In this document: positions 3,515 through 50,003 of the stretch, piece by piece
Layout: every line of letters starts with the position of its first letter
How positions within the stretch are numbered: position 1 is the stretch's first letter
NCBI GenBank assembly: GCA_964017235.1
Contig: OZ024935.1
Location: forward strand, 86,271,052 to 86,335,051
Source: Sabellastarte sp. h YS-2021
Taxonomy: Eukaryota > Annelida > Polychaeta > Sabellida > Sabellidae
Direction: 5' to 3'
Length of the DNA stretch: 64,000 bases
Notes under the pieces: model-generated
The model's database searches: none
Told to the model about the DNA's origin: nothing
The model's input: the letters and a program-made list of their open reading frames with translations, nothing else
Position numbers and translations under genes: made by a program

Positions 3515-4131
3515 CTGATGACTTTTGACAACTTCACGATCGTTAAAGATGCAGGACTATCTGGGGACACCAGAGCTCCATTGGCAGCACAGAAGTAGTG
3601 GTTGTAAATTGTCCTGGTCACAATTTCATAAGGATCAACTATATTCTGAACTGAATCCTTTTGAATTTCCTTTGACAGGATGTCTTGAGTATGGGTCATC
3701 AATTGATTAAAGAACAAACTGTTTCTCATCTTAGCAACTTTATCCAAAGTGAATCTCTTCAACCGCTGATGGTGGTCACTGGCATCCTGTGCAAACAGAT
3801 CTTTTGGGATGCCATCTTTCTCTGCACGAGCCAACATATTGTACCTCACTGATACGTTTCTGGCCTCGAAGTTGCCTGTGTCACAGATCTCTTGAAATAT
3901 GGTGTTATCATTGACCACAAGGATGGTCTTGTTAAGCACCTGGATCATGTACACTGATCCACATTTGGCTCCCCAAAATTCAAACTTCTGCTGAGGTTTC
4001 TTTCCAATGAAGAACATATGTCCGAAAATTGGCAGGCGGAATGATGGCATAGGAAAGTCTAACTTGGGTTTCATCAGGTAATCCAGTAAAAATATGGCTA
4101 CTATCACCGCAGCTATTATTAACAGATACAT
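3515..4131 (-). CDS. Cytochrome P450 paralogue 1, first exon (N-terminal 205 codons; gene incomplete in window)
   Basis: Encodes the N-terminal part of a microsomal-type P450. The protein has a hydrophobic anchor at about residues 3-20, a basic patch KPK, a proline-rich hinge (FPMPSFRLPIFGHM, about 26-39) and a C-helix segment HQRLKRFTL where CYP2-type enzymes read WxxxRRFSL, so the usual Trp is His and the first Arg is Lys. I chose the ATG at 4131 because the paralogues start at the same point; a TTG further upstream is in frame but not conserved. The exon ends CATCAG|GTAAAT, a good donor, leaving 2 nt of an Arg codon exactly as in the paralogues. By eye it is about 84% identical to the exon at 12386-13002. 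The matching second exon must lie left of position 1, so this is either a gene cut by the window edge or an orphan exon. Confidence 0.88.
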
Positions 4132-6948: not shown

Positions 6949-7795
6949 CTATTTCCTTGGGATGAATTTCATGGCACATCTGGCAGGGATTGCAGCCAGT
7001 GCTATACCCTCCCAGCTCCTTGAATCATACGGGATATCAATGCCTCCAACAGCACTCATATCAAAGGCATCCACCAAAGATGTGATCAGGGAAAACAAGA
7101 CATCCTTCACTATAGGTACACCAAGACACTGCTTCTTGTATTCTCCATATGCCTTGAAGTTTCTGCGAACAGAACTAGACTCAGGAAGAAGGTTGCCATT
7201 ACTCTCCAGAAATCTCTCTGGTTTAAAAACCCAGGGATCATTCCATACCGAAGCATCATGGTGGCCAGCATACACATTGACAATTACATTGGTTTCTTTT
7301 GGAACAACTTTTCCAATGATGGTTGTATCTTTTGTTGCACGTCGGATAAACATGGGTACCGAACCCATATACCTCAAGGATTCCATCAGAACTGCTTCAA
7401 TATAAGGAGACTGGCAATCTACAGCTGGAACAAATGGTTGGGATAGCTTTTGGGAGGTTATTTCCACTCTGATCTTCTCTTGAACATCCGGGTGAGCTGC
7501 TAAAAGCATAATGATGCCATAGAAAGATGTTACTGCAGGTTCTGCAGCACCAATGAGGTTGTTCACCAGCAAGGAAGTCAGCACATCTTCTGGTTCATTT
7601 GGTCTATCTGGATCAGTGAGATATCCACAGGCAACACCATTATTAGGGCCATTCTCTTCAACCTCCTTTTCAAGAGCATGGAAGACTTCAGTCATGATAG
7701 AGTTGACATCTTTCAGACCTGTGTATGCACTATTACCAAAGTGTTTCAGCCACGGGAAGGTTTCCAGACTCTTTCCAGCACTTGACATACAAACC
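6949..7795 (-). CDS. Cytochrome P450 paralogue 2, second exon (catalytic half, C-terminus)
   Basis: Encodes residues 207-487 of a 487-residue P450 when joined to the exon at 12386-13002. The acceptor reads TTTGAATTCACACAG|G and restores the split Arg codon. Motifs in the joined protein: I-helix GAAEPAVTS (288-296), K-helix ExxR as ESLR (344-347), PERF (398-401) and heme loop YGEYKKQCLG with the proximal Cys at 429. The I-helix lacks the usual acid-Thr pair (AGxETT becomes AAEPAV). The heme loop has Tyr for the central Gly and Lys for the Arg that usually contacts a propionate. The length is normal for the family and there are no frameshifts, so the gene looks intact. Monooxygenase, isomerase or peroxide-rearranging activity are all possible; the changes favour the last two. 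It looks CYP2-clan-like, but the family cannot be fixed without a tree. Confidence 0.93.
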
Positions 7796-8722
7796 CTGTG
7801 TGAATTCAAAAAAATATTATTATGATTAAAGCTTGTCAAACTTAAGATAATTGCAGATTTTATATGACTTCTAAGGATTTTTATGACTGAATCGGTGAAG
7901 ATAAATAATTGCCATAATGAGTGAAGATCTTACTAAGCACAGAGGTTGAGAAGTTAGTTAATGACTTTGATCTTATTGGTGTAGTTGAGAGTTTGGATCC
8001 AGTTTGTGACAACATGTGGGATGCATTTACTTCCTGTGGTCATTTGACCTTAGTTGTTGGAAGGGTAAAAAGTCCATCCTTAGTAACTTTCAGTATACTG
8101 TATAGGTCATATCATCGCAGGAAGTTTAAGGGTAGGATGGAAGCACTGCATAGTAGTCGTTCAAGATTCTACCATGAAAAACATCAAGCATAAACAAACA
8201 ACTAACACCTTTCCAATTTAAAAGTGGATTGGGAATCAAATCAGGGATCTGACAGGTGGGATAAAGTCACTGAGGAGACAATATAGTGAACGTATGATGT
8301 CAATATATACTCTTATTCTAGCACAAATATTTTGATTTGTGGTTATGAGTACACTGCATGGATCATACCAAGAAAAAGGGTTTATGGACTAGAATACAAT
8401 GTATACTTTGTTTTGTTTTTGCACTGCAACACCCATCACTCTAACAAGTAACTTCTGCATGCTTGAGATGTTTAGACCAAAAGTACAATGCATTAATTAT
8501 GTTACTTAATGTTAAATGTATGTCTACCATAACCCTTGTTTGTAAATCATAGTAATGCTGTTCCTGATGTTATTCGCGCACCCCCCTATTGCCTTTTTCA
8601 CAAAAAAGCTTAAACCCCACCTCTATATACCAGACTTAAGTCTCAAAATTTCTGTGGTATTCTTATTAGTGCTTGACCCTTTCTCTGTCCTTGCATATTG
8701 AAATTGGCTCACTATTTTTGTG

Positions 8723-8796
8723 CGGTTGTACCTTAGACTCCACTCAATACAGGGGAGATTAAGCACCATAAAAGTCAAATTAGAATAGTCAAATTT
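8723..8796 (+). repeat. L2-type LINE 3' tail, solo copy
   Basis: GTTGTACCTTAGACTCC..GGGGAGATTAAGCACCATAAAAGTCAAATTAGAAT matches the 3' end of the L2-like element at 46425-46490 (GCGCCTTAGAGTCTGTC..GAGATTAAGCGCTATAAAAGTGCTATTAGAAT). No coding part is attached, so it is either a severely 5'-truncated LINE copy or a SINE sharing that tail. Confidence 0.6.
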
Positions 8797-9649
8797 CTGA
8801 TATTTAGGGTTTGTCACTGAAAACTGTTGGAAACGTGAAAAACACTTTTGTTTGACCAGATTTAGACCAGAAGGTTAATATGGACAATTGTAAACACCCC
8901 ATGTAATTGAAAGAGAAATGTAGGTGAGTGAAATGTGTTCACTAAGAAGTGAAACAGTCATGGTTTATTTCTGCAATCCCCACAGACAGTTATCTTGTGC
9001 ATGTGCATAAATGAAAAAAGGTGAAGCCATATGGCCAGTGCTTATTTCCTATTTCTTTTGCATACATCAACTCTATGTATTACTGCTCTCCCAAATAAAA
9101 TGCTTGTCACAAGTTTACCTGCATACCCAGTGTTTGGTGGCCATTTGTATTCACCAGTGAAGTGGGACACACATGTAAAGTATCATGTTTAAGAACTCTT
9201 TCACGAAGACAAGGACACATTTATGTACACCTTGTTAATGGTAAAATGGTTAATGGTAACCCTTGTGTAAAACTTGCAGGTATATTTGTAACCGCAGGAG
9301 GTAATTCAAATGCTAGTAAAACATCAATATTATATCCAGAGATTTAAAATGTAACTACTCTGATGTGCTTGCATCACAGTGTGCATTTACAAAGTATCTA
9401 CAAAGTTATGTGACCTCTTGTAACAGTGTTGAGGACAATATAGTATGTGGAAATATATGTGACCTAATGTATATAAGAGACAGAAATTTGACAAGATTTT
9501 GTTCCAATGAAATAAATGAAATGTTAGAGTACTTATGCACTTCTTAACCTCTTGTATATATTTAAACTATTGTAACTGTATATATATATTCAAAGTATAC
9601 CTTTGTGTATGAATAAATAAATAAAATATAAATAAATTGGAGCCAAAAG

Positions 9650-10178
9650 CCCCGCTCACACTACAAGGCGGTATTGCCCATGTTTATAGTCATTTAATTG
9701 AACATTCCATCCGTGTAATTACTGATACACTTCTGTCTGTGAACTTTAGAAACTCTAGCTTTCCCTGTTTTATCTGTCAATTCACAGGGAGGTTTTGAAA
9801 AGTTCAATATTTCAGCCTCCAGGATTTTCAGGGTTTTTGGATGCTTTTAAACGGCAATAGGGGGCCACGGTGGCAGAGTGGTAACACTCTTGCCTCCCAC
9901 CTCTGAGGCCGGGGTTCGATCCCTGTCATGGCCTGAAGTGGGAAAGCTGGTAGTTGCTTGCCGTTGGCCAGCAGTTTACATTACAGAACCCTAGCGAACT
10001 CTATGTACTGGTTTCCTCAGCCCTTCCAACTACCCATTGCGATATGACCTGTACAGTGTTGAAAGCGACGTAAAACCCCCCAAAAATAAATAAAAACTCT
10101 GTATGCTTCTGTAATTTTCTCTACTCCAAAAACCCCAAATAAACAAAACGGCAATACCGCCTTGTAGTTTGATTGGGA
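9650..10178. mobile_element. MITE with inverted ends, interrupted by a SINE
   Basis: The ends form an inverted repeat: left CACTACAAGGCGGTATTGCC, right GGCAATACCGCCTTGTAGTT then TGATTGGGA. A related element without the SINE lies at 19286-19520, with the same TIR type (CCCAATCAAACTACAGG) and shared interior such as CCAAAAACCCTGAAAA. After removing the SINE the element is about 240 bp, matching the 235 bp of the other copy. There is no transposase, so it is non-autonomous. Confidence 0.75.
9860..10145 (+). mobile_element. tRNA-derived SINE, family 1, inside the MITE
   Basis: The head carries a pol III A-box (TGGCAGAGTGG) and B-box (GGGTTCGATCCC). The body ends GCGACGTAAAACCCC and an A-rich AATAAATAAA tail. 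An 11-bp target duplication AAACGGCAATA flanks it (9849-9859 and 10146-10156). The 3' part is longer than in sister copies, with about 50 extra bases ending in another AACCCCAAATAAAC. It is likely transcribed by pol III when active and moved by a LINE. Confidence 0.85.
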
Positions 10179-10460
10179 TATTATACACCATAAGACCTTA
10201 GAGACCACGTGTTATGCGCACAAACATTCTGATTGAACATGCCACACACCAAATATGGTTTAAAAAGATGGCATCACACTGTGATTCTCTCAATTTATCA
10301 AAGACATAACAGCTAAATGACATATGTAAACACGGCTATCATGGCAGTGACATATCCCAAATGCATTAACTTTTCCCTCCTGACCAACCATGACAATATA
10401 GTCCCTATTCTATATATTGTTATTGTACAACTATCATTCCAATTATAAAGGTCAAGCAGA

Positions 10461-10615
10461 GGTCCTCAGTGACCTAGTGGTTAACAAGTTTGGCATTTAA
10501 CAATAGGCTGTCACCTCTGTGGGTTCGAGTCCCACAAGTGGCAATACCGAGGACCTGTCCCAATATGACCCTGATTGTTGAACGGGATGTAAAACCCCAA
10601 CTTTGACCTTTGATC
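10461..10615 (+). mobile_element. tRNA-derived SINE, family 2
   Basis: A-box-like GACCTAGTGGTTAACAAG, B-box GGGTTCGAGTCCC, then a tail GGGATGTAAAACCCCAACTTTGA. Partial copies of the same family occur at 11150-11275 and 31197-31236 and on the minus strand at 63325-63480. The head resembles a tRNA, but there is no matching 3' acceptor strand, so it is not a free-standing tRNA gene. Confidence 0.75.
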
Positions 10616-11149
10616 AATTCAATAAAGGAATGATGGTAATCGTACTGCTTGGTCAATTAAAAAAAGTCTTTGTTTAAAACATTTTGTGAGCGAACCTATC
10701 CAAATGCTTATTGATTTCATGGTCAACATTTATATTTCCCTAGGGTTATTTGTAATTTTAAATTACACCCGAGAATGTTGTTCATTATCAGCGCTGATAT
10801 CTTCAATCAAATTACACCTAAGAGTTTTTGTTAAAAGCGTCCAATATCTTTCACGAATGGACACTTGTTCTGCTCTGTGATTATGATCATATTTAGGAGC
10901 TCTTTTCGAGACATTTCCAAAGAAACTCCTGTGCTTTTATTTCAACGAATATGATCCTGCAAACTCAAAAATAAATGTCAGAAATTTAGAAATGAAAAGT
11001 AATGGTGTTAAAGCTTCAAAAATTACAAATTAAGGAAGGGGTACAATTTAAAAAAAAAGGAAACTTACTGTAAAAGTCTGACAGAACAAGGAGGAATGAA
11101 ACATAAAATATAATGTCTATTAATGCAGTCCAAACTGCATATAGTGTGA

Positions 11150-11275
11150 TTTGGGCATTATCACAGGTGTCACCTCCGTGTGGTGTTGATCCACACTGAT
11201 GGCCTTACTGACAGCCTGTCTTCATAGGGAACCTAGCTGTTGGACAGAGCGTGAAAAAAACCCTAAACTTTGATT
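11150..11275 (+). mobile_element. SINE family 2, 5'-truncated and diverged
   Basis: TTTGGGCATTATCACAGGTG..CACCTCCGTGTGG..GATCCACACTGATGGC follows the same order as positions 10489-10540 of the better copy. It ends GTGAAAAAAACCCTAAACTTTGA, like the family tail. Confidence 0.55.
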
Positions 11276-12385
11276 TAAAAGAAAATTTCCATAGATATCA
11301 ATAGCTGCCATCTTATCCATTGCTGTCTTTTTGAATATAGAAGATTAGTAATGGCTAATTGATGGGGTCTACAATTTTTGCCGTGAGTAAGAATAATATT
11401 AACCCTGCAGTCATGCAAAGTAAAATGCTAAGTTACTGCCAATGTCCCCTGCTTAATTTCAGTGCAGTTTGTAGGTGTTAATATATGTGTGAAAAATAAG
11501 TAGATATCACGAAGATTTTGAATATGAAAGGGCAAAAGGTCCAGGAAGAATAATTAGCAGATTTATTTTGTGTATTTTAAGTTAGACAATATCTTCAAAA
11601 GGTAGAATTCTTTTTTTTAATTTTCTTTGCCATGTGGGTGATGTTGGACTTAGATATGTATAGTGGATGTATATAGTCCTGAAGGCGTGCCCTATTTTAA
11701 GGTGATTTTTTAAGGTGAGTCTCATGTGTAAAAAAAATTACTTAAATTTTCTGTGTTTACCCACAAGTAAACGGAAAATGGCTTGACAAATTTGATCTAT
11801 ATTTTGTAAGTACAAGTTACTGATCTTGCAGAAGTTTTTCTACATTAAGGTGACCTGAAATTCCCAGTAATGACATTATTATATTTAATTTTCTTTCACA
11901 GTTTTTTGGTCGATATCTTATATTATGTGCAATAGATTTTAAGCATATCAAGATCTGAGTATAACTAATCTTAACTAGGCTTTAATTTTAATGTCATCAT
12001 CCTAACAGCCTCGGACATTCAAATTAAAAAAATATCCACTTTCTCAGGCTTATTAGCTTACTGATTTCTAATTTAGAATCTACCCCAGTTTAGATTACTT
12101 TCTGCCTTTCCTCAACATTCTATCATAAACTGCCATGTATAATATGTGTTGAACCTGATATTTAACCCCAGTATACATCATAGCTGAAAAAAACCAGTCG
12201 TTTTTAAATGAAAATTCTCAAATGGGTGGACGTATCATGAGAGAATATCAATATTCTCCAAGTTGACATCACCTGGATTGGAAGGTAAGATCATAAGAGT
12301 AAGAGCCAAATAATCATTTGCCAAGCTAGATAACCTGTAGACTAATGAGGGTCCTCCACCATACTAAAATGGCTATGTGATTTAC

Positions 12386-13002
12386 CTGATGATCTTTGAT
12401 GCCTTCACCACCTTTGCAGAAGCAGGACTATCCGGGGACACCAGAGCTCCATTGGCAGCACAAAAATAGTGGTTGTATATTGCTCGGGTCACAATTTCAT
12501 ATGGATCAACTACATTCTGGACTGAATCTTTCTGGATTTCCTTTTCTAAGATGTCTTGAGTATGTGCCATCAATTTATCAAAGAACAAACTCTTTCTCAT
12601 CCGGGAGACCATAGCCAAGGTGAATTTCTTTAACTGCTGATGGTGGTCATTGGCATCCTGTGAAAACATGTCCTTTGGAATGCCATCTTTATCTGCACAA
12701 GCCAATATATTGTACCTCACCGATACGTTTCTGGCCTCAAAGTTGCCTGTGTCACAGATCTCTTGGAACATGGTGTTATCATTGACCACCAAAATGGTCT
12801 TGTTAAGCACCTGGATCATGTACACTGATCCACATTTGGCTCCCCAAGATTCAAACTTCTGCTGAGGTTTGTTTCCAATGAAAAACATATGTCCAAAAAT
12901 TGGCAGCCGGAATGAAGGCATTGGAAAGTCCAACTTAGGTTTTATCAGATAATCTAATAAAAATATGGCTATTATTATCCCAGCTATAATTAACATACAC
13001 AT
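12386..13002 (-). CDS. Cytochrome P450 paralogue 2, first exon
   Basis: First 205 codons plus 2 nt of a 487-residue P450 completed by the exon at 6949-7795. It starts MCMLIIAGIIIAIFLLDYL (a signal-anchor placing the enzyme in the ER membrane with its body in the cytosol), then KPK, a proline-rich hinge (27-39) and a C-helix HQQLKKFTL (121-129) in which the usual Trp is His and Arg125 is Lys. The donor is CAG|GTAAAT. The ATG sits about 110 bp below a TATA-like box. By eye it is about 86% identical to the exon at 49387-50003. The reading frame is uninterrupted. Confidence 0.93.
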
Positions 13003-13111
13003 GATGTATTGTTTTTATTGCTTTTTGCTGACCAAATTTTATTAAAATCTTGCAAAATACACAGTGATAGTATGCACCATATGTCAATCCAATGAAATCC
13101 TGTGTCTGAGT

Positions 13112-13119
13112 CTATATAG
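13112..13119 (-). promoter_or_regulatory. Putative TATA box of P450 paralogue 2
   Basis: CTATATAG lies about 110 bp upstream of the ATG at 13002. Between it and the ATG are blocks shared with paralogue 3: GATTGACATATG, TGTGTATTT and TTGGTCAGC, in the same order. This supports a conserved core promoter or 5' UTR. Confidence 0.55.
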
Positions 13120-13539
13120 TGTCTGGTCTCAATGACTGTTTATACACGTCTGTGTGATATCTTGTCATTAAGACTGTCCCCTCTGCACTGTGTGTAGAAT
13201 TCTACTGAAATTGTGCTGACTATCTGTCAGCTGATGTCCTGTTCCATTTTTGCAAAAGGAAAACTCTCGGTCTGAGAAACTGTAATATCTACAGCCCAAT
13301 GTAGACCTTTGCATCATATAACTTAACACTTTTACTTGGAAACTGATTGACTTAAATATAATAATAGATATTATGCATATATTTCAATTATCTACATAAG
13401 TATAGTTGTATATATACTAGCATGGTGAAACACAGATCTAGACACTTTTTCGGAATTTCTTGCAAATTCTGTGAGGGTTTCTATTTAGGGAAAACATTTA
13501 TGCATGAAGCTAGTCCTGTACCTCCAAAGTACTGGTGTC

Positions 13540-13585
13540 GGGGGGGTGGGGGGTGGGGGGTGGGGGGGTGGGTGGTATGTGGGGA
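13540..13585 (+). repeat. G-rich run, G-quadruplex capable
   Basis: Six G-tracts of three to eight residues separated by single T or short spacers occur within 46 bp. The composition stands out against the AT-rich surroundings. It may simply be a mutated poly-G microsatellite. Confidence 0.7.
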
Positions 13586-13900
13586 TAAGATGGGAACCTC
13601 GGAAAAAAGACCTCAGTTTTAACACAAAGTGTACAAGACTGTAAACACTCAGCTCAAAAAGTTTTCTCCCAAAATATAAATATAAGTGAATTGTATGGGC
13701 AACTAATTCTTGGTATTCTATTGCTCGTTTCCATGATCAGTTTCCTGTTATTTTGACTTGGGGCCATTCAGATTCAATCTAACCCCCGATTGATTCATTC
13801 TAAGTAGACAAGGTCTATTTTGAATTCTGATTTTAAAGAAAAAGCATAGTAATAAGTTTTGCTGCATTTTTAGTTGTTTTATATACACAAATACGGGAGC

Positions 13901-14012
13901 TGGACAAATCGGCCCTTTGACAATTTCGGCCCTCGGCAAATTGTCCCCCCCAAAAAGTCAGCCTTGAACAAATCGGCCCCCTAAAAAATCGGCCCTGGAC
14001 AAATCAGCCCCC
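13901..14012 (+). repeat. Short tandem array, GGACAAATCGGCCC unit
   Basis: About seven imperfect units of GGACAAATCGGCCC type (13-18 bp each) run head to tail, with C-rich variants such as AAATTGTCCCCCCC. No coding frame survives across it. The origin is unknown. Confidence 0.65.
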
Positions 14013-14030
14013 AATTGAAAACTTCAATAG

Positions 14031-14130
14031 AACTTATTTATAGACCTGCAGAGAGCATTTGACTGGGTTGATCAAGATATAATTTCAGGATTATTAAATG
14101 GAAAATATAAGGGGTCCTTTTCAACAGAAA
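14031..14130 (+). pseudogene. Non-LTR reverse transcriptase fragment (motif A)
   Basis: Frame starting near 14034 reads LFIDLQRAFDWVDQDIISG, which fits RT motif A (D-x-x-x-A-F-D-x-V). No other RT motif follows before the frame breaks, so this is a short relic of a LINE. Confidence 0.5.
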
Positions 14131-14629
14131 TGACTTAATTGAAATGGTATCACATTTATTTTTTTTTCAATATTTTCCCTCTTCAGATTGTTTTGGCTGA
14201 AATGAGTGTTACTTATTTGTGTTGCTTATTGTTACATAAGTGACACTGCAACGTGTGTTACCTAATGCTAATAGGCAATTTACAGCTTATATGTAGGTCC
14301 ATTGGAAATTTGGAAATTTCTTTTTCTTATAATTACATCATGTTACTTTGAACTTCAAAGCTGAATGATAATCGGAGAATAAAAGAAACCCTTTTATAGA
14401 GGAAATGTATCATGCAATTGTAATCAGCCTCTTATTAAAATAATGGGTGGATAAATATGCATGACAATGTTATCACAAAAGTGTCAATTGTTTATGTGTT
14501 GACTAACTAAGTGTAATTAACACATATCAAAGATGCCAAGACATCAATCCCTTGTAACCTATGTGCAATAAAACTTGATTATATTAGAATTATTAAAAGT
14601 GCAATTGTATTGTCTTTACAGCCTCTGTG

Positions 14630-15680
14630 TGATTTACGGATCATAATTTTCATCAGTGAACATGTCCGTACCGTCTGTAATGTCATTGTGGCATCCGCCA
14701 CGGATGGGAAGTGTCCATGCTGATGCCACTGAAAAATCAAACTGCTTGATTTTTCCGTAAAAGGATGTCAGGTGTAATTAATATACGTAAATGATCCCTA
14801 TCTAATCCGTAAGTTGTCCCAAATGTCCTTAAAGCACCCATAGATCTCCTTGTGGCATCTGGGACATCCTTGACTCAGCCGTGCCAATAAAGGCTCGGAA
14901 AATTTCTACAGATATTCCCAGAGGGTGTTTGGAGAAGGTCACAGATATGTAATTTGTCTGCGGATATGCAAGGATATTTACAGATTGATCCATGGACAAT
15001 AGCGATGGGGTTTATGGATGACAAGGATACCTCAAGGACAATAAAGACGGGATTTACAGATGGAATTGTAGTTTCCCATGACATAGCTGAAATGATGAGT
15101 AACTGCCTCCCCATTTCTAACAGTAAGAGTTGAAGTTGTGCAAGATTTCTTGTGTGTCTGTCTATATTGGCATCTATATTGTATCTGGCTAGTGAGCTGA
15201 ACCTTAACCCCTTTTATAGCCATTGGCTTCCAGATATTCAGTGGTCAATACCTCCCATGGAGACACGTGTAATGTTATGTTAATAAAATTTCCTTATCGA
15301 TAAGCTGACATCCGCAAGAAGAATGAAGATCTGTAAACCCAACCTGTGATTGTCCACAAGGTCTTTAAACCCATCCAGGGTGTCCTTGAGATGTTCTGAT
15401 GCATTCCTATGTTGTCCTGGTGTGGCCTGGGATTTTTCCGCTGCTCTGCGGGTGGTCATGGATGTGTACCCGGTGGTCATCCGCAAGCAACGAAACACAT
15501 CCCTAACGTCCTTGTGGCATCCTTGTTAACTGTAGAGTGATCCGTGACGCGTCCATAAATCACTCACTTTTCTCACCTTCCCCCCAAAACCCCACAATCC
15601 GCAACAGATCCTTGGCAGTTTCCATATATGGAACCGTGGTGTATAGCCGTGGGTGATCCGTGTAAGTGTAGCTGGCCCCT
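14630..15680. repeat. Cryptically repetitive block rich in TCCGT and GGCATCC
   Basis: Across about 1 kb the words TCCGT, GATCCGTG, GGCATCC and CCTTGTGGCATC recur irregularly. The outer edges carry an inverted ACGGATCA (TTTACGGATCAT at the left, TGATCCGTGTAA at the right), so it may be a decayed DNA transposon with subterminal repeats. It has no protein-coding signal. Confidence 0.4.
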
Positions 15681-16862
15681 TAGAGGAAAGTGACAGCTTC
15701 AGACAGGGCCAAGATTAGCACTGAGAAAACTAGAAGGACTGCTGATAACAAAAGTTATAAACGAATCAACAAAACGTAAGCATTTAAACCATCTTCTTCT
15801 GTTACAACCACTAATCCTAGCCCTGTCTAACATGGCACAGTCAATGACACAATACTGGCATATTTGGCTAGAATGAGTCAACAAAAGGTCACCATTGGGT
15901 CAACATGGCACCCAAATTGAAATTTAAGTGGATCAGAAAGTCAGAATTACATTACTGCATTTAAGGTAGCTATAAAAAGCTTTATGTCTAGGAGATTTAA
16001 AATCTTTTCAAGATAGGGTGTCCTTTAGTGAAGAATGAAGATGACAATTTATTATCCAGCCCAAACCATTTATTTATTTATTTACCTATTTGTTTACCCA
16101 ATTATTTATTTACTCATTTATTTATTTACCCATTTATTTATTTATTCTTTTTGGGGAAGGGGGGGGGGGGGGTATTCCCTGGCGCCACATTCAATTCATA
16201 CTTACCATTACAAGCTAATTTTACGTTCTTACTCTTCCAACTCTAAATGGATATTTATAGCATTTAGTTGCCCCTTTATCAACAGCATCTAAAAAGGTAA
16301 CCAATATTAGTATCCAGGGATGAAAATAGGGCCAAGCTTAAGCAACACGGAGAACACCAGGCACATATTCAAACTAAGGTGGGGGTCTGTCTTGGTGCAG
16401 AGGTAACATTTGAGCTTCTTTCTGAAGGAGGATATAGTTGAGGGTACAGGAATCTCCCACCAGGAAGAGCATTCAAAAAAACCCTTTTTAAAAATTGTTT
16501 TCAAAGGTCAAATTTATATTTCCAATCATTTCAACTGTTAAGGTTATACAAAACCCAGACTGAATACCAGATGTTCTGGTTCCCCAGACTAGGGCTGCTG
16601 TGCCAGTTTGTATCGCCTCAGGGAATTGTGATGTATCTGTAAATTCCTAATTGTAAGGTGTAATTTAAGCCCTGTTCAAACATACTAGATTAAGTCAATT
16701 CACTTGCAACTTTAGTATCTTGGTCTCGGAAAGAAAGAACACACAAAATGCTCACATTTTATTGAATTCCCTTATCCGGTGTACCATTCACGTAATATTG
16801 CTTTTTGTGTGTGTTCAAGGTTCCATGAAGCATCATTGAGGGCTGTTGTATACTAGTTTGTG
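15681..16862. other. No gene; low-complexity tract
   Basis: Contains an ATTT-rich stretch (16064-16150) running into a poly-G run (16153-16172). The minus strand around 16307-16504 has a weak LINE C-terminus flavour (SSFRKKLKCYLC), which I do not count as a gene. Confidence 0.5.
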
Positions 16863-17078
16863 GTAACACTCTCGCCTCCCACCTCTGAGGCCTGGGTTCT
16901 ATTCCCGGCATGGCCTCAAGTGGGAAAGCTGATAGTTGTTTGCTGTTGGTGGGCAGTTTACAGTACAGAACCCTAAGGAACTGTATGTACTGGTTTCCTT
17001 TGCCCTTCCAACTACCAGTCGCGATATGACCTGTACAGTGTTGAAAGCGATGTAAAACCCCAAATAAATAAATAAATG
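16863..17078 (+). mobile_element. SINE family 1, lacks the first bases of the head
   Basis: Starts GTAACACTCTCGCC rather than at the family 5' end. It keeps the B-box region (altered to GGGTTCTATTCCC) and ends GCGATGTAAAACCCC with an AATAAATAAA tail. The perfect 12-bp target duplication TACTAGTTTGTG lies at 16851-16862 and 17079-17090, showing insertion in this truncated form. Confidence 0.85.
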
Positions 17079-17090
17079 TACTAGTTTGTG

Positions 17091-19119
17091 AAGATTTATT
17101 CATTGTGCATCTACACTTGGTTCATGTAGCACAATCCTCATATTGACACAGAAATGTAACACGGAATTTACAACCATGGCAATCAGGATTAGTGGGATTG
17201 CAGCTTACCTGTATGAGGCAGATACATAGTGACTTGGATGGCCACTTAAAATGACAGAGTCCTATCCCAGTAGTAGGCTAAAGAACACCATGAATATTAG
17301 CAGATGGCCCTTCCCGAGACTTTGTCTTTGATTTACATCAGTCACTAGACCTGCGGCTGTACTTAGCATTCGGGACGGGTTAAATAGCACTTTAAGTCCT
17401 TTAGTAAAGGAACTATTGCACTGAGCATTAATATGCAATATAATAAAAATGGTGACATTACAGAGATAGACCTTCCTCTTGTTCACTGTGTCAGGTATCA
17501 TTTACATCAATATTCAGTAAAATGTTAAACAGTACACGCGATTTAATGAACGCAATCCGGGTCTATAATGTCCTAGTATACATATGCTATAATTGAGGAC
17601 ATTATGGAGTAATACTGCATAATCGTCTCTCTCAAAGTGCTGTGTAAAAGGGTCGACTGGTTTGATATTTTCTGTCACATATATCTATATCTTTCCTTTG
17701 TTTAATTCATTTTTATCAAAATGAATTCACAATTTATTACACAATACAAGCACAATAAACCACGTGTAGTCCAATGTTGGCCACTATACTTTGACAACAT
17801 CAACCCCCAATTATTGATAACTAACTTCAATATTTCTGTGAATGGTAATGTACAGATGTACCAAGTATATTATTTGCTTTTATTATCTTAGAACATGACT
17901 TCTGATTTCACTAGGCAGGATCAAAATAGCAGTTTTATGGTCCTTCCAACAACCTATATCATATCCAGACATCTCTTGGGGGCACAAATAAAGACATAAA
18001 ATTTTGTAAATATATCCCAAGCTTATGATTCAGTTTGATTAAGTTACAATGTTCTCATATAGCATATTTAACTTAACAAAGTCTAATAAACTGATTGAAT
18101 CCTCAATGTTATTCCATCACCATTCTTTTAATATTTCAAACGGTGACTTCTGTTGTTTGATAATAAAGGATCATCTTAAACAGAATATAGGCCTTTACAA
18201 AATATTAATGCACCCCTGCCACAAGAGTACGCCAGGAAAAGAAGAGGTTTAGATTCCTGTTAATTTGATGATATATCAGTATAGGTTGAAATTCAGGGGA
18301 TGCTGACAGTGGTTAAAGCAGTAATTCAGAGTTTGGGTTGTAGGTTTACTTTTGAAGTGTCAAAGTTTCTTCCGTGTCTTTTTTGCCTCCTTCACAAAGA
18401 AACTTGCATCCTCGATCTATCTTTAAGCCTATGATCCATAGCTTCTTTATTATTCCTTCGTCTCAGTGGAGCTGCCATGTTTTGTTGTCCTCGGACTTTT
18501 GAAAATGGAATTTGTATTTGCAAGTTGCGACCTTCTTTGTCTACGTTTTAGCAGATATTAAATTCTATAAAAGTTGGCTCAAATGAGAATTAATTTTCTA
18601 CTCCTTAAAGATTTTTTGTTGCATGATAACATGGAAGTATGAGTAAAAGGGTTGCTCACTGGCCCCGTATCAGGCTGGTAAAAGCTAGTGTTTGTTGTAT
18701 TAAAAACTAGCTCTAAGTTAAAAGACAGTAGTATTTATAGATGTCCATATACAAGTTATTGGTTCTGTCCAATTTATCTGAGAAAGAAAAACTAACGTTT
18801 TATTTTCACCATTAGACTGATCTATAAACTGATATGTATAAAAACTGGTACTTCCTGGCGTCATAACTTGGCACATAACTGAAGTTTACACCAAACAAAA
18901 TATAGATTTCTAATCGACGGTGTTCTCTTTAATCTTTTGGGTGCTACAAATTTTCTTTATGAGAGACACCTTTTGTCTTATCGTCTTATCGTCCTACGAC
19001 TAATCTACCCCTAAATGTAGTCACGTGATGACGTCACCAGAGGCAATGTCTTAAGAGTAAATTTGTCAAGAATGAATGTAAAACACTTTAAACGCCATGA
19101 ATCTTTTACAACATAGATC
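17091..19119. other. Intergenic, nothing recognised
   Basis: Between SINE and L2 tail. Short open frames lack any motif. A 10-bp perfect stem (ATAATGTCCT and AGGACATTAT) near 17569-17605 is the only structure I noticed. Confidence 0.45.
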
Positions 19120-19185
19120 TAATCTAATGTGGACTTTTATAGCGCTTAATCTCCATCACTGATGGACTCAAAGGCGCAACTGAAC
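19120..19185 (-). repeat. L2-type LINE 3' tail, solo copy
   Basis: On the minus strand: GCGCCTTTGAGTCCATC..GATGGAGATTAAGCGCTATAAAAGTCC, matching the 3' end of the element at 44869-46490. No coding part is attached. Confidence 0.6.
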
Positions 19186-19285
19186 ATAAAGCAAGGTGGT
19201 GGTTAACATTAATCCGAGGACATAGATACATGGCATTTCTATTGTATTAAACGAGTTTATGAAAATATTAGGATACACTTTTATT

Positions 19286-19520
19286 ACCCCAATCAAACTA
19301 CAGGGGGTATTGCCTACGCTTAAAAACATCCAAAAACCCTGAAAATGGTGGAAGTGGAAATATTAACATTTCAAAACCTTCGTGTTTATTGCCACGTGAA
19401 GCAGGGAAAACTGTATTTCCTCAAGTTCACAGACTGAAGTGTGTCAGTAATTACAGGAATCAGGCGGTTACATAAAACACCTATAACTATAGACAATAAC
19501 TCCTGTACTGTGACTGGGGT
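19286..19520. mobile_element. MITE, uninterrupted copy
   Basis: The left end ACCCCAATCAAACTACAGG mirrors the right end CCTGTACTGTGACTGGGGT. The interior matches the element at 9650-10178. No coding capacity. The flanks carry TATTA-like sequence on both sides, so the exact target duplication is uncertain. Confidence 0.7.
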
Positions 19521-20756
19521 ATTATATTTTTGGACCACTAAGCTTCACCTTTTTAAAATATTTATTTTCTTTATAGACAGATAATGTACAGACATGGAGA
19601 ATTAAACAAAATGTCCAGAATCAACTGAATGACTGAACAATTTGACAGCCTTTGGTTGGTAACACCAAATTTGGTAATAAATATTCAAACCCACCCCGTC
19701 ATATCTGACTATGCTTAAATTTTGCCGTTTTTTATATATATATTTCATAGTTACTCCTGAAAGTGTGTTTCTAACATTTTGAATGCTTTTTTGTTATCTA
19801 TTTTTTCCAGTAACAATACCAGCTCAAATGAAAGTTTGTTTTACCTGTTTTGTAACCAGTATTCTTGGTAACTAAACCAGCAAAGGTGAAAAAAACCCCA
19901 TTGTTTTATGTTTCTTTTTTTGCTGTACAATAGTTCGCCTGTAGTGTTTATGTTTTGTTCTGTGTGTGTGTACCTAAGTGTTCAAAGGAAGCAAAATACA
20001 TAAGAAATAATCTTCCTTTCCCAGTTACCTGACTTGAAGTACATGTTCACAACTAACAAATAATCTTTTATTTAGGTGGAAAAGTCTAGTTCTGAACCAT
20101 TGTAAACAATCTTCAAAAAATTAATACAATTTACCACCAGAGACAAATGAAAACCAGCCGTCCTTCACCATAATTACAAATTAAAGATAATATGGATTAT
20201 ATACTGAGCTTGCACATGGCATCTACAAATGAAGTAAATTTTTATTGTTACTCTACACTATTACCAAATACGACACTACAACCCACACAGCATGTACATT
20301 TATTGTAAGTAAATGTACCAAGTAAGAGATAATGCTATTCACTTCTATTTGAAATGTCAGAGGTAATTCTACTTGTAAAAAGAATAAAAACATTAAGGGA
20401 TATGATGACATGATGAAAAACATTACAAGTAGCCAGTATTGTGAGAACAGACAGGAATCAAAATATTTTCATTTTACTATGAATCAAGTTGAAGTGGAAC
20501 TGAAGCCAGTATGTTGGTTGTTGTAAACAAGTACATAGAAAATAAAATGTCAAACATCTGTACAAACAAGGAAAAGTATGTTAAAATGAATATAAGCTGA
20601 TTGGGTATAATGTTAGGTTTGTTTATAGAAATACACATTTTAATAGTTTTACAAGTATCACCAGTTTGCAGTTGGTTTGTCAAAATATTGGGCCCATTTT
20701 GAGGCATTTACGCATACTGTCACAGCTGTAGAGCATGGGGCTCATAAAGTGTGCAT
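19521..20756. other. Intergenic, nothing recognised
   Basis: AT-rich sequence downstream of P450 paralogue 3. Open frames are short and motif-free. Confidence 0.45.
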
Positions 20757-20762
20757 TTTATT
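20757..20762 (-). promoter_or_regulatory. Possible polyadenylation signal of P450 paralogue 3
   Basis: AATAAA on the minus strand, about 218 bp after the stop codon at 20980. It is plausible by position only; in AT-rich DNA such hexamers are common. Confidence 0.3.
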
Positions 20763-20979
20763 AAATAATTGTAACTGATTAAGTGATTGCTTGACCCAAA
20801 TACAATTATCCCTAGACCATTCATTATGTTACACCATTACCAAATAAGCCACTATTAGCATTTGCGCATAACAAAATTAAAAAGAAAGAATATTACACAT
20901 TAAACATATCTTGTCCATACAGCATTAAGTAAATGATAAATGACATTTTACTGAAACATTCAAGAACAAAAGCGGAAAA

Positions 20980-21823
20980 TTACTTCCTCGGGATGAATTT
21001 CATGGCACATCTGGCAGGGATTGCAGCCAATCCTACACCCTCCCAGCTCCTTGAATCATATGGGATATCTATGCCCGCAGCAGCACTCATATCAAAGGCA
21101 TCAACTAAAGATGTGATCAGCGAACACAAGACATCCTTCACTACAGGTACACCAATGCATTGCTTCTTGGATGCTCCAAATGCCTTAAAGTTTCTGCGGA
21201 CAGGACTGGACTCTGGAAGAAGGTTGCCATCACTCTCTAGAAATCGCTCTGGTCTGAAAACCCAGGGATCTTTCCACACTGAAGCATCATGGTGACCAGC
21301 TTTTAGGTTAACAACTACATTGGTTTCTTTTGGAACTCCTTTTCCAGTGATTGTTGCATCTTTTGTTGCACGGCGGATGAACATGGGTACAGGTCCCATA
21401 TATCTTAGGGATTCCATTAGAACTGCTTCAATATAAGGAGACTGGCAATCTTCGGCTGGAACAAATGGCTTAGATAGCTTCCGGGAGGATATTTCAGCTC
21501 TGATTTTCTCCTGCACTTCTGGGTGACCCGCTAATATCATGATGATGCCATAGAAAGATGTTACTGCAGGTTCTGCAGCACCAATAAGGTTGTTAACCAT
21601 CAAAAAGGCTGTGTCTTCTGGCTCCTTCAGTCTGTCTGGATCAGTGAGGTATCCAGAGGTAATGCCATTATTAGGGCCATTCTCCTCAACCTCCTTTTTC
21701 AGATCATGGTAGACTTCAGCCATGAGAGTGTTGACTTCTCGCAGACCTGTGTAGGTGCTGTTGCCAAAGTGCTTCAACCATGGAAAGCTTTCCAGACTCT
21801 TGCCAGCACTGGACATACAAACT
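20980..21823 (-). CDS. Cytochrome P450 paralogue 3, second exon (catalytic half, C-terminus)
   Basis: Encodes residues 207-486 of a 486-residue P450 when joined to 49387-50003. The acceptor is strong: a pyrimidine tract then TTTCTACAG|A, restoring the split Arg codon. Motifs in the joined protein: I-helix GAAEPAVTS (287-295), K-helix ESLR (343-346), PERF (397-400) and heme loop FGASKKQCIG with Cys428. The acid-alcohol pair of the I-helix is absent, the central heme-loop Gly is Ser, and the Arg before the Cys is Lys. It is one codon shorter than paralogue 2, just before the I-helix. There are no stops or frameshifts. It could be a non-monooxygenase P450; the substrate is unknown. The pairing with an exon 27.6 kb away rests on exon order and matching phase. 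Confidence 0.92.
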
Positions 21824-22103: not shown

Positions 22104-24102
22104 AGTGATGCTGAATGAAAAGTTGTATATGCTCAACTTAGAAAACTACCAGAAAAAATAACTGAATCACATCTTCACAGCACAAAAGGACAACAAGGTT
22201 ATCTTTTTGTTACAACACTTTCAATCCCTCATTGCTGCAGATAGAGGCAAATATGGTGGGGCAAATATGTTTGAAAAATTGTTTGAAGAAACAAGAAAAA
22301 ATATTTAGTCTAAAATATTCAAATTACCAGTGAAAAACTTTTCACTAAATGTTAACACTTATTAAATGTAAGAATAAGTAAAAATATGAATTTAGTATAA
22401 GTTGTGTATAATAAAAAACTATAGGATGTCAGGAAACTACTTTTTTGCATGAAATACTCAGTGAAGATTAGTGTCTTATTCATTGAATACTAAGAATAAC
22501 AATGATAGAAACATTTATGCAGCACAAAATTGATGAAGTTCCTCTAATGTGCTTTTTATCAAACAAGGCACAGTCCAAAACTAAGCATATTTCACAAGTG
22601 AGTAAGTACCTGTCAGTCAGGGATGGTGGGTATGCCAGTCTGAACGGGCATGTCTTGAGTTGCCTCCAGAAATTTGCAGCTCTTTGCTTGTTATATTCCA
22701 TGAATGTGACTCGTAAGAATGTCAGAATGAGATTCTGACCTGTGTCTCACTGGTATGACCTGGCTAGGTTAATGGAACAACTCTTATTCAATATATTTAT
22801 ACTCCTATACCCATTACTCATAGTTTCTGTCTTTGTCACCATCCTGTTGTTTTTTCCTAGCATATTTACAGATCTTGATATGAAATGTGTTATTTCACCT
22901 TTTTGAAACATACACAACAGTATTTGGATCTTCTGCTCTTATAACATTGCAAAATTATATACAGCTATGAATGAAAAGTTGTATATGCTCAACTTACAAA
23001 ACTACCGGAAAATATAACCGAATCACATCTTCACATCACCAAAGGAAAACAATATTATCTTTTTGTCACAATACTTTCAATCCTTCATTGCTGCAGACAG
23101 AGGGAAAGCATTTACAATTGTATTGGACAATTTTTGAGGTATTCAAAAGTAACACTTTTTCATGACCATGAACAAACTGAGACAAGTATGGCTGAAAGCA
23201 ACTCTGAGGCAAAATACATCTGTAGATATATGAAATGACCTTTTCTGGGGATATTTCTGGGATTAACAAAAACATAATCTTTGGGATTCATAGATATGGT
23301 GGGGGAAATATCAAGAAAAAATATCAAGAAACAAGAAAAAAAATATTTAGTTTGAAATATTCAGATTACCAGTGCAGGAAACTACTTTTTTTGCATGAAA
23401 TACTCAGTGAAGATTAGTGTCTCATTCATTAAATACTAATAATAACAATGATAGAAACATTTATGTAGCACAAATTGATAAAGTTCCTCTAATGTGCTTT
23501 TATCTAACAAGGCACAGTCCAAAACTAAGCATATTTCACAAGTGAGCAAGTACCTGCCAGTCAGGGATGGTGGGTATACCAGTCTGAACGGGCATGTCTT
23601 GAGTTGCCTCCAGAAATGTGTAGCTCTTTGCTTGTTATATTCCATGAATGTGACTCGTAAGAGTGTAAGAATGACCTGGTTGTGTTAATGGACCAACTCT
23701 TATTCAATATGTTTATACATGGTTGCGCCTTAGGGTCTGTCACATGATGGAGATTAGGCCCTATGAAAGTCCTCGTTAGACTTGATTAGATAATAATGTT
23801 TCAAGGTGTACAACACTTGATATGGTTGACAATTTGTATTTATGTGCTGGTGTGGGTTTTCTTGAAAATGTATGACACCAGAAGCGAGAACATGTACAGT
23901 ATAATTCAGTAATACAATTAAACAACATTACTGTAACTCCTGCATGCATTACCCATATAATCTCTCTTTGTCAACATCCTGTTTTTTTCGAGCATATTCA
24001 CAGAGCTTGTTGTGAAATGTGTTATTTCAACTTTTTAAGCATACATGACAGAATTGGGATCTTTCTCCTCACGTTACATTGCTAAATTATAAACAGCTAT
24101 TG
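22104..24102 (+). repeat. Tandem duplication of an ~860-bp unit
   Basis: Unit 1 is about 22104-22965 and unit 2 about 22966-24102. Both begin TGAATGAAAAGTTGTATATG and share long blocks such as GGCACAGTCCAAAACTAAGC and TGAACGGGCATGTCTTGAGT. Both end near ACAGCTAT. Unit 2 is longer because of a ~220-bp insertion (23717-23935) and shorter in its first third. No coding content is shared. Confidence 0.8.
23717..23935 (+). mobile_element. Insertion in duplicated unit 2, starting with an L2-type tail
   Basis: Present in unit 2, absent from the same point of unit 1. It starts ATGGTTGCGCCTTAGGGTCTG..GGAGATTAGGCCCTATGAAAGTCC, like the L2 3' tail, then about 150 bp of unknown sequence. Because unit 1 shows the empty site, the insertion is younger than the duplication. 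Confidence 0.55.
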
Positions 24103-24347: not shown

Positions 24348-24586
24348 TTTTTATTTATTTATTTATTTGGGGTTTTACGTCGCTTTCAACACTGTACAGG
24401 TCATATCATGACGGGTAGTTGGAAGGGCAGAGGAACCAGTACATACAGTTCGTCAGGTTCTATACTGTAAACTGCCGACCAACGGCAAGCAACTACCAGC
24501 TTTCCCACTTGAGGCCGTGCCGGGAACTGAACCCCGGCCTCAGATGTGGGAGGCGAGAGTGTTACCACTCTGCCATCGTGGCCCCT
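24348..24586 (-). mobile_element. SINE family 1, near complete
   Basis: On the minus strand it starts GGGGCCACGATGGCAGAGTGG, has a B-box-like GGGTTCAGTTCCC and ends GCGACGTAAAACCCCAAAT with an AAATAAATAAAT tail. I could not settle the target duplication. Confidence 0.85.
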
Positions 24587-32239: not shown

Positions 32240-33235
32240 ATACCATTAAGAAGTTGAAACTTGGTAAGTCTAGTGGCCATGATGGTTTAAGTGCTGAGCA
32301 CTTTAAGTTTGGTGACCATAGCACCTCCTAACCCAGGTGCCTACTTGTTAATTTTATAGTATTTGTTTTTACTTGTCCATATTGTTCACGTCTATTATAA
32401 GTCATGTTTACATACCAAGTGAATTTATGAAGACTGCATTGCTACCAATCATTAAAAGTAAAACTGGTGATATGCATGATGTTAACAATTATCGTCCTAT
32501 TGCCCTTGTTACTTCATGTTCGAAGCTTTTTGAGTTGATTCTGTTTGAATTTACTGACATGTATCTTCAGACAGCTGATAATCAGTTTGGCTTTAAAAAC
32601 AAACATGCCACTTATATGTGCATTTTTACAATTAAAAATGTTATTGACTACCATGGGAGACAGAATAGTCCTGTCTATACTTGCTTCTTGAATGCTTCTG
32701 AATCACTGGACACTATTTTCTAAATTAATTGACTGTAAGGTACCATTGTTACTTGTACGTGTAATTGTATACTGGTACAGAGCTCAGCTGTTTTACATCA
32801 GGTGGTGTCCACATATGTCAGACAGTTTCAAAATCTCTAATGGTAAGAGACAAGATGGGATTTTATCCCCTAAGCTGTTTGCTGTATATCTAGAGAGGCT
32901 ATCTGTAGCACTAAACAAATCAGGCATTGGCTGCAATGTTGGTACTTGTGTAAATCATTTGTTTTATGCTGATGACCTTTGCCTCTTGGCACCTACAGCC
33001 ATGGCCCTACAACAAATCGTAAGCGTTTGTTATAACTATGGTGCTGAACCTGACATTGTGGTCAATGCAAAGAAATCTTATTATGCAGTTTTTAAACCAA
33101 AAAGGTACAAACGAAATTGTCCTACTGTGTCTCTTGCTGGGACAGTTATACCAAATCTAATGAACAAACTAGGAGCCCATATGCTCATGGTAATACTCTG
33201 CTTAGAAAGGTTGGTCTCTGCTCAAATTAGGTAAA
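32240..33235 (+). pseudogene. Non-LTR reverse transcriptase fragment, Jockey-like
   Basis: Opens with KKLKLGKSSGHDGLSAEHFK, then PIALVTSCSKLFELILFEF, a frame break near 32720, YWYRAQLFYIRW and RQDGILSPKLFAVYLERL. The catalytic box is FYADDLCLLAPTAMALQQ, followed by AEPDIVVNAKKSYYAVF. Order and spacing fit RT fingers, palm and thumb start. Endonuclease and 3' end are missing. The family assignment (Jockey superfamily) is from the look of the NHLFYADDLCLL region and is tentative. Confidence 0.7.
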
Positions 33236-33858: not shown

Positions 33859-34850
33859 CTAGTGAGTAGGGTAAAGGTAGAGATGCTTTTGAAAGTTTTT
33901 GGCCACCTCATGAGAGGAATTATGATCAAGGGTGATGTATCTCCAGACGCATTCCGACGTCCAGGTGCCATGGCTCTGGATATGTTGAAGTGGAACATTC
34001 GAATTAAAGGCGAAAGAGGCACCTGAACGCCGGAATGCGTGGAATGTGAGATTGGAATTTTGGAGATTCACTTTTGACAATAGATTTTTAAAATGTCGCC
34101 TGACCTGGTTGTCTGTGAGGGGAAACCACTTAGTGGAAGTCTTATATTGAAACAGGGGTGTGTTATTGGATCCAGGGGTGATTTTAAGTAATTTTTTTAT
34201 GGCCCTAACTGGACAAATGGGGTTAGAACCCAGATCAGGAATTTTAAGAATTTTGACAGATTTCCTGTCCTGTATGGTTTTACTCCATTTAACTATTATC
34301 TGAAGGCCTGGGTTTGCAAATAAGATGTCACCTCTGGCTAGGTGATAGAGGGGAGAAAAAGTTTTTATTGAATGAGGGACCAAGTTAGATAATCTTAGAA
34401 ATGAGAAAAATGCCAGAGTATAAATAGCTTTAAACACTTGTCCCATGTAGCTAGAGTCACAGGCTCTAACCAATAGTTGAAGGGAATCAATGTCAATCAC
34501 ACTTTTAAGTGAGGGTTTGAAAGATGAGCGAAGTGTGACAGCTCGTTGAAAATATTTGATTCTGGGGTCTTGAAAAATGAGGGTGGGGATTCCATACAAT
34601 GACAAGTTTGCTTTAATAGCTGCCAAATGGTTTGCTAGGGTGGGGCTTGACAAGCCATTGGAAGCTAAAAATTGAAGGTAGGCTACTATTGCCATAGGTT
34701 GGAGTGAAAAAAAGTGAGACTTGCATAAATACTGTGAAGGCTATGAATAGCCTAAACATACTTTGGTAACTGCTTGTGGTACCAGGTCTAAATGCCAATT
34801 TGGTCTTCTTGGCTGCTTCTTTGGCCAAGGGAGCCAATCTAGGTGGCAAG
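33859..34850 (-). pseudogene. Tyrosine recombinase of the DIRS-order element
   Basis: The ATG at 34695 opens a 278-residue frame. The catalytic set is visible: Arg101 (FLRLSNL), Lys136 or 139, His219-x-x-Arg222 (HAFRRSG), His242 (SHGTW) and Tyr253 (VWRYI). The N-terminal core-binding domain (AFRPGTTSSYQSMFRLFI) is in another frame at about 34715-34850. A run of seven T on the coding strand near 34715 is the likely break. The recombinase replaces an integrase: known members insert a circular DNA copy without a target duplication. Confidence 0.8.
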
Positions 34851-34854
34851 CCTG

Positions 34855-35160
34855 TCAAATACACCAATCGAGATGTAAGTGAGTTTGTTGGATCTCCACC
34901 CATTGGTGTTGGGGAAGTAGCCTATTTAGGTTTACCTGGGGATCTCCCATGAGAGACCAACGTGAGAGCAAGTCAGCAATATGGTTATCCTTACCTGCTA
35001 TGTGGTTAACCTGAAGATTGATGTCCCAGGTAGCCACCTGGAGTTGCATGTTTCTGGCAATTGCAGCTAAGGTCAAGTCCCTGGTTTTTCCTGAGTTAAG
35101 TGCATGTACTACAGCCTCATTATCACATGCAATACATACTTTAGATTTAGCCCAAGTACT
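34855..35160 (-). pseudogene. RNase H C-terminal part of the DIRS-order element
   Basis: Frame after a break near 35160: KVCIACDNEAVVHALNSG, then RDLTLAAIARNMQL and VNHIAGKDNHIADLLSRW. The CDN and NHIAD segments are typical of the RNase H end of DIRS and Ty3-type pol. It is out of frame with the RT-bearing part, so this copy cannot make a full pol without a frameshift. Confidence 0.7.
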
Positions 35161-36383: not shown

Positions 36384-36384
36384 T

Positions 36385-43890: not shown

Positions 43891-43902
43891 TAGGTCGTGC
43901 TA

Positions 43903-49386: not shown

Positions 49387-50003
49387 CTGATGAGTTTTGC
49401 TGTCTTAACCATCTTTGCAGATGCAGGACTATCTGGGGACACCAGAGCTCCATTGGCAGTGCAAAAATAGTGGTTGTAAATTGTCCTGGTCACAATTTCA
49501 TATGGATCAACTACATTCAGAACTGAATCATTCTGAATCTCCTTTTCCAAGATATCTTGAGTATGTGTCATCAGTTCATTAAAGAATGAACTGTTTCTCA
49601 TCCGGGCGGCTATGGCCAAGGTGAATCTCTTCAACTGTTGATGCTGGTCATTAGCATCCTGTGCAAACATGTCCTTTGGAATGCCATCTTTCTCTGCACA
49701 GGCCAATATGTTGAACCTCACGGATATGTTCCTTGCCTCAAAGTTGCCAGTATCACAGATCTCTTGGAATATGATATTATCATTGACCACCAGAATGGTC
49801 TTGTTAAGCACCTGGATCATGTACACTGATCCACATTTGGCACCCCAAGATTCAAACTTCTGCTGAGGTTTGTTTCCAATAAAGAACATATGTCCAAAAA
49901 TTGGCAGCCGAAATGAAGGCATAGGAAAATCCAACTTGGGCTTCATCAAGTAATCCAACAGAAAGATTGCTACTATAACCCCAGCTACTATTAACATACA
50001 CAT
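49387..50003 (-). CDS. Cytochrome P450 paralogue 3, first exon
   Basis: First 205 codons plus 2 nt of a 486-residue P450 completed by 20980-21823. N-terminal anchor LIVAGVIVAIFLLDYL, KPK stop-transfer patch, hinge FPMPSFRLPIFGHM and C-helix DQHQQLKRFTL with the same Trp-to-His and Arg-to-Lys changes as its paralogues. Donor ATCAG|GTAAAT. The ATG at 50003 is chosen because a paralogue has MCM in the same place and a TATA-like box lies about 120 bp upstream. It is the 5'-most gene of the cluster; a foldback-like element begins 468 bp upstream. Confidence 0.92.

Follow-up and report, generated by a model that had tools for sequence, protein, structure and literature searches.

Tandem annelid P450 genes placed in the CYP2 clan with altered I-helix and heme-loop motifs

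A 64,000-nucleotide stretch of the genome of the polychaete Sabellastarte sp. h YS-2021 (contig OZ024935.1 of assembly GCA_964017235.1, forward-strand positions 86,271,052 to 86,335,051; hereafter the window) contains cytochrome P450 paralogues arranged as three tandem copies of one two-exon gene, all read from the minus strand and here called A, B and C. A tblastn search of the window with the exons yielded three copies of exon 1 and two of exon 2. Exon 1 of gene B (12386..13002) holds the start codon (ATG at 13002), the membrane anchor and the C-helix and ends at a phase 2 donor, AG/GTAA, whereas exon 2 (6949..7795) begins at the acceptor ACAG/G at 7795 and stays open to the stop codon at 6949. 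Gene C was assembled from exon 1 (49387..50003), located by its tblastn match and donor, and exon 2 (20980..21823, stop codon included), which has the acceptor ACAG/A at 21823. Gene A is represented by exon 1 (3515..4131), again recognized by tblastn match and donor; its exon 2 was not found within the window by the same search. All three donors read AG/GTAA, both acceptors end in ACAG and the introns are of the GT-AG type in phase 2, with lengths of 4590 bases in gene B and 27563 bases in gene C. The far-apart exons of gene C were paired because their phases match and because synonymous divergence (dS) from gene B is equal in the two exons (0.497 for exon 1, 0.496 for exon 2). Joining the exons gives proteins of 487 residues for B and 486 for C, the lengths given in an earlier note on this DNA. 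The span which that note assigned to the paralogues, 6949-21823, contains gene B and exon 2 of gene C, but it splits gene C and leaves out the first exons of C and A.

Internal stop codons and frameshifts were absent from the five exons of A, B and C. Ratios of nonsynonymous to synonymous divergence (dN/dS), calculated by the Nei-Gojobori method, were 0.146 for B-C over 486 codons; the 205-codon comparisons gave 0.193 (A-B) and 0.138 (A-C). These ratios, taken with the intact frames, argue that the genes are under selection. The Pfam p450 model (PF00067) matched the two joined proteins with E values of 1.4e-52 and 1.7e-48 (179.5 and 166 bits) and the first exon of gene A, the only part of that gene compared, with 2.1e-11 (43.7 bits), all above the gathering cut-off of 22.8 bits. 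The heme Cys, ExxR and PERF are kept in both B and C, as had been read from the letters, and the proteins may thus bind heme. In all three copies the N-terminus is hydrophobic, with a mean hydropathy of 2.6 over residues 1-19. For gene C, the one protein compared with NCBIfam, eight families matched far below their cut-offs, the best at 71.1 bits against 525; these included models for the fatty-acid peroxygenases of CYP152, scoring 27.6 bits where 600 is required, and for a non-enzyme activator derived from P450, scoring 44.6 where 343 is required. Matches to viral contigs (one locus, 17 residues), to genome contigs (four bacterial loci, 28-31% identity) and to phages (two mycobacteriophage records, 26%) were judged uninformative and were not used.

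By sequence and by tree, genes B and C fall in the CYP2 clan, closest to CYP1, CYP2 and CYP17. Their best relatives of solved structure were CYP1A2 (E 2.5e-28 for C and 1.5e-27 for B), CYP17A2, CYP1B1, CYP2R1 and the plant sugiol and ferruginol synthases, as seen in the best 60 of 411 and of 345 matches, in which no CYP74, CYP5 or CYP8 chain appeared by name. The best matches, to CYP1A2 and CYP17A2 of the CYP2 clan, were nearly full-length, with 23-25% identity and scores of 97-115 bits. In blastp, the scores for gene B and gene C, respectively, were 107 and 115 bits with CYP1A2, 105 and 97 with CYP17A2, 64 and 73 with CYP2C19, and 66 and 64 with CYP3A4. Those with CYP8B1 were 46 (E 3e-4) and 36, with CYP7A1 37 and 36, and with CYP8A1 32 and 37. 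CYP74A2 (3dam) gave no match for gene B and 33.5 bits for gene C, and CYP74A (2rch) gave none for either.

In a first tree, built with 12 references and with the motifs unmasked, B and C joined the four CYP2-clan rows with support of 82/82. Neither a CYP74 grouping (p-AU, from the approximately unbiased test, 0.164) nor a CYP7-clan grouping (0.098) was rejected there. In a second tree, with 11 references and the motifs masked, B and C grouped with all four CYP2-clan references with support of 98/99. Kinship with CYP74 as the source of the motifs was rejected in this tree (p-AU 0.021) and was not supported by the best matches; kinship with the CYP7/8 clan (CYP7A1, CYP8A1 and CYP8B1; CYP5 itself was not compared) was rejected at p-AU 0.0023. 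The second tree combined a more careful alignment, removal of the long CYP152 row and masking of three motifs, all at once, such that the decisive change cannot be separated from the others. Both trees rest on few references, with no animal CYP74-clan sequence among them, and the branch leading to the window genes is long (about 1.9 changes per column). Hence, we regard the placement in the CYP2 clan as good but not final, and it is highly probable that these are selected CYP2-clan genes. The kinship with CYP74 or CYP8 to which the earlier note had looked did not hold up in these comparisons. That note had also taken placement among P450s with shown NADPH-dependent hydroxylase activity to tell against its proposal, and such placement was found at the level of the clan only.

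The motifs usual in the CYP2 clan, although not defining it, are WxxxR, AGx(D/E)T and FxxGxRxCxG, and B and C lack all three. In the I-helix both second exons read GAAEPAVTS, at 7525..7551 in gene B (Glu 291, Pro 292) and at 21556..21582 in gene C (Glu 290, Pro 291). This core is one residue short, having five residues (AEPAV) between the conserved GA and TS where the references have six. We scored the six possible placements of the gap by BLOSUM62 against seven references. Five of the seven (CYP2C19, CYP17A2, CYP3A4, sugiol synthase and, by one point, CYP1A2) aligned Glu with the acid and Pro with the Thr, whereas CYP1B1 favored Pro and Ala at the acid and Thr places and CYP51 favored a gap. 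Glu also stood at the acid place in a MAFFT alignment of 11 sequences and in a CYP2-clan profile, but not in a profile to which CYP3A4 and CYP51 were added, nor in phmmer alignments to CYP1A2 and CYP1B1. The sequences thus make the loss of the Thr firm, since it was seen in every register tried, whereas the Glu may be kept at the acid place and loss of the acid is not firm. The earlier reading that the acid-alcohol pair had been removed is therefore right as to the letters and the Thr and unsafe as to the acid. The 20-residue block around this core has the same amino-acid sequence in B and C despite silent differences in three codons, and selection therefore appears to hold the altered I-helix.

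The C-helix peptide is HQRLK in gene A (3757..3771) and HQQLK in genes B (12628..12642) and C (49629..49643; His 121 and Lys 125). In the best ungapped register all three copies of HQ(Q/R)LK lie opposite WKEIR of CYP2C19 and HEKLK of CYP74A, with scores of 12-15 and 14-19, respectively, against at most 2 and 6 for the next-best registers. MAFFT likewise aligned the His with the Trp and the Lys with the Arg in genes B and C. However, ungapped scoring against CYP1A2, CYP17A2, CYP1B1 and CYP3A4 mostly preferred other registers, and two profiles both matched the His to the Trp and the Lys to the Arg in gene C but placed gene B three residues off, with low confidence. The replacement of Trp by His and of Arg by Lys that had been claimed for the three first exons is thus present in the letters and in a register that relies on CYP2C19 and CYP74A, but the register is unsettled against the four other references and in the gene B profiles. 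Whatever the register, the C-helix has no Trp nearby, Trp 53 being the only one in the first exons.

The heme loop is YGEYKKQCLG in gene B (7120..7149) and FGASKKQCIG in gene C (21151..21180). As had been noted, Lys replaces Arg two residues before the Cys (C-2) and Ser or Tyr replaces the central Gly at C-4; gene B additionally has Tyr for Phe at C-7. Five of 20 residues differ between B and C in this region, which is thus freer than the I-helix block.

Several of the replacing letters occur in CYP74. Both CYP74 chains compared have HxxxK in the C-helix and KQC in the heme loop (HEKLK and NKQC in 2rch, HAQLK and NKQC in 3dam), in accord with the earlier note, and at C-4 one of the two (3dam, with Glu) lacks Gly whereas 2rch keeps it. 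Given the tree, the C-helix His and Lys and the KQC that B and C share with CYP74 are probably convergent. The features of CYP74, according to a portion of PMC8124189, include a catalytic Asn in the I-helix groove, an insertion, a PPV domain and an ERR triad. GAAEPAVTS contains no such Asn, the nearest two lying just upstream in VNNLI; B and C may also lack the insertion next to the heme Cys, and they have little full-length similarity to CYP74. At the place of the PPV domain, after ExxR, gene C reads GPVP and gene B GSVP, where 3dam has PPVP and 2rch PPVT. The ERR triad is present by virtue of ExxR and PERF and is common to P450s at large. The distance from PERF to the Cys is 27 residues in B and C, compared with 28-29 in the CYP74 pair and 22-25 in three references of the CYP2 clan; the extra residues sit in the meander, and the Cys loop is of normal length. 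The lancelet and cnidarian epoxyalcohol synthases of the CYP74 clan were set beside B and C through the literature only.

Three other groups offer partial parallels. CYP152 peroxygenases resemble B and C in that Pro substitutes for the I-helix Thr (for B and C, in the preferred register) and in their changed heme loop, but they carry Arg-Pro (RP in 1izo) where B and C have Glu-Pro, and B and C are spliced genes with a hydrophobic N-terminus and CYP2-clan sequence. CYP307 (Spook) of arthropods is in the CYP2 clan, and the portion of PMC3740924 at hand describes WxxxR and AGxxT as not well conserved in CYP307A1, which is reported to act in ecdysteroid synthesis; by that description, our only basis of comparison, conservation is better in the remaining three motifs, among them the heme loop. 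A part of PMC2276477 states that no Halloween orthologues were found in one annelid and one mollusc genome. In CYP20A1, compared by motif tables only, the I-helix is degenerate in cnidarians (PMC8110760), but the Capitella protein has AGFHTT (PMC4229089), and the heme-loop Arg is kept in all three tabulated CYP20A1 sequences; the sections of PMC8669017 available to us contained nothing on motifs that bears on this parallel.

P450s of the CYP2 clan carry a strong prior of being monooxygenases. The explanation we consider best, at a probability of about 0.45, is that B and C are CYP2-clan membrane P450 monooxygenases with altered proton delivery. Such enzymes would be fed by P450 reductase, and the textbook Thr relay would be replaced, with protons delivered by the I-helix Glu, by ordered water or by a group of the substrate. 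Lys and His would stand in for Arg and Trp as partners of the heme propionates, and the enzymes would act on a single, narrowly defined endogenous molecule, not on a wide set of xenobiotics. In CYP7A1, CYP8B1 and their clan-mate CYP8A1 (prostacyclin synthase) the alignment shows neither the Trp nor the Arg of the C-helix, and both the acid and the Thr of the I-helix are missing, as is the Arg of the heme loop. By their PDB entry names, CYP7A1 and CYP8B1 are nonetheless a monooxygenase and a hydroxylase. Motif loss therefore cannot separate an isomerase from a monooxygenase, and motif reading alone cannot name a P450 isomerase, as these three proteins share most losses but not their chemistry. 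A functional CYP107A1 has Ala for the Thr, and its substrate probably gives the proton (from part of PMC10741444). Within the CYP2 clan itself, CYP307A1 offers a further case, given its weakened WxxxR and AGxxT and its reported role in ecdysteroid synthesis (PMC3740924). The argument of the earlier note from motif loss to rearrangement of hydroperoxides is accordingly weak. If B and C are monooxygenases, they would provide a clean natural test of how O2 is activated when the Thr and the Arg residues of both the C-helix and the heme loop are all absent.

Several observations weigh against this explanation. Among 114 animal P450s from Capitella and cnidarians, taken from the tables of two papers (PMC4229089 and PMC8110760), the residue at C-2 is Arg in 109, His in three, Phe in one and a gap in one, with no Lys, and that at C-4 is Gly in 113 and a gap in one, with no other residue. 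CYP7A1 and CYP8B1 keep the C-4 Gly, as does prostacyclin synthase. In changing together, the C-helix and the heme loop also resemble those of CYP74, which takes no electrons. I-helix position 5 is more variable, with eight of the 114 lacking Thr or Ser. Departures confined to the I-helix were reported for thirteen Capitella P450s in the text of PMC4229089 and for twelve in its list, CYP39B1 (ASLANA) included, and an I-helix departure was reported for cnidarian CYP20 (PMC8110760). The sample is biased to motif-complete genes, since genes without the motifs were as a rule excluded as fragments by the cnidarian authors and the table for Capitella lists only a subset, and the true variation is therefore larger. 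Nevertheless, the altered motif set of B and C is more than chance. Listings of the literature on mollusc and annelid P450s contained no account of this set, which is not proof that the family is unnamed.

Weighing the prior against the rarity of the joint change leaves a slight preference for a monooxygenase with altered proton delivery over an enzyme that uses peroxides or hydroperoxides. The latter, a tentative but serious contender, would consist of CYP2-clan P450s that converged on splitting H2O2 or lipid hydroperoxides without reductase, as a peroxygenase or a CYP74-like isomerase, Glu-Pro replacing the acid-alcohol pair as Arg-Pro does in CYP152 and Glu acting as the general acid. The recurrence of HxxxK and KQC in both CYP74 chains, the non-Gly C-4 of 3dam and the higher C-helix scores with CYP74A than with CYP2C19 are consistent with such a conversion. 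Part of PMC5818669 links H2O2 use in CYP152 to the Arg-Pro and to a heme loop changed where redox partners bind in other P450s, and a portion of PMC9112060 reports that Glu engineered for Thr gave H2O2-dependent activity in CYP102A1 and a tenfold rise in epoxidation in CYP119. B and C, however, lack both the groove Asn and the CYP152 Arg, the masked tree rejected CYP74 kinship, most of the losses recur in CYP7A1 and CYP8B1, which are enzymes of another type, the natural CYP152 members named in the part of PMC5818669 at hand use Arg-Pro rather than Glu-Pro, and the Glu is in the acid register only with uncertainty. We consider doubtful the fuller version, in which a CYP2-clan lineage would have acquired, on its own, a heme pocket closer to that of CYP74 (C-helix His and Lys, KQC loop) and, with Glu-Pro for the acid-alcohol pair, would use its own carboxylate to split H2O2 or lipid hydroperoxides reductase-free. 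Were the enzymes reductase-free, they would mark an origin of peroxide chemistry within the main drug- and steroid-metabolizing clan of animals and a naturally occurring Glu-Pro counterpart to what has been approached by mutation in protein engineering. Simultaneous change of the C-helix, I-helix and heme loop, and the freedom of the heme loop between B and C, would also suit P450-fold proteins that bind heme or a ligand without catalysis; this seems improbable given the retained Cys, ExxR and PERF, the low dN/dS and the identical I-helix block. Decaying pseudogenes or mis-joined exons would fit the transposon remains in the long intron of gene C and the lack of a second exon for gene A in the window, but five exons free of stops and frameshifts, canonical splice sites in one phase, dN/dS of 0.14-0.19 and the equal B-C dS make them very improbable.

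Mobile elements and repeats surround the genes. About 2.6 kb upstream of gene C lies an uninterrupted open reading frame (ORF) resembling a long interspersed nuclear element (52577-56410, minus strand; 1277 residues), in which an endonuclease domain and a reverse transcriptase domain are present. The intron of gene C contains a DIRS-like retroelement (33859-38299, minus strand) in which a reverse transcriptase ORF (35109-36437) precedes one for a tyrosine recombinase (Phage_integrase; 33859-34740); two adjoining ORFs (36385-38299) had no Pfam match. Two more reverse-transcriptase ORFs, at 44824-46092 and 32692-33234 (both plus strand), lie in the same intron. A unit like a short interspersed nuclear element occurs in six copies, at 9860-10100, 51581-51814 and 16860-17076 on the plus strand and at 24354-24585, 43901-44066 and 52051-52276 on the minus strand, the others being 78-92% identical to the first (9860-10100); its head looks tRNA-like by eye, but ARAGORN reported no tRNA. 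Near exon 2 of gene C, also within the intron, 22130-22760 and 22986-23674 form a tandem near-duplicate that aligns in three pieces of 81-95% identity.

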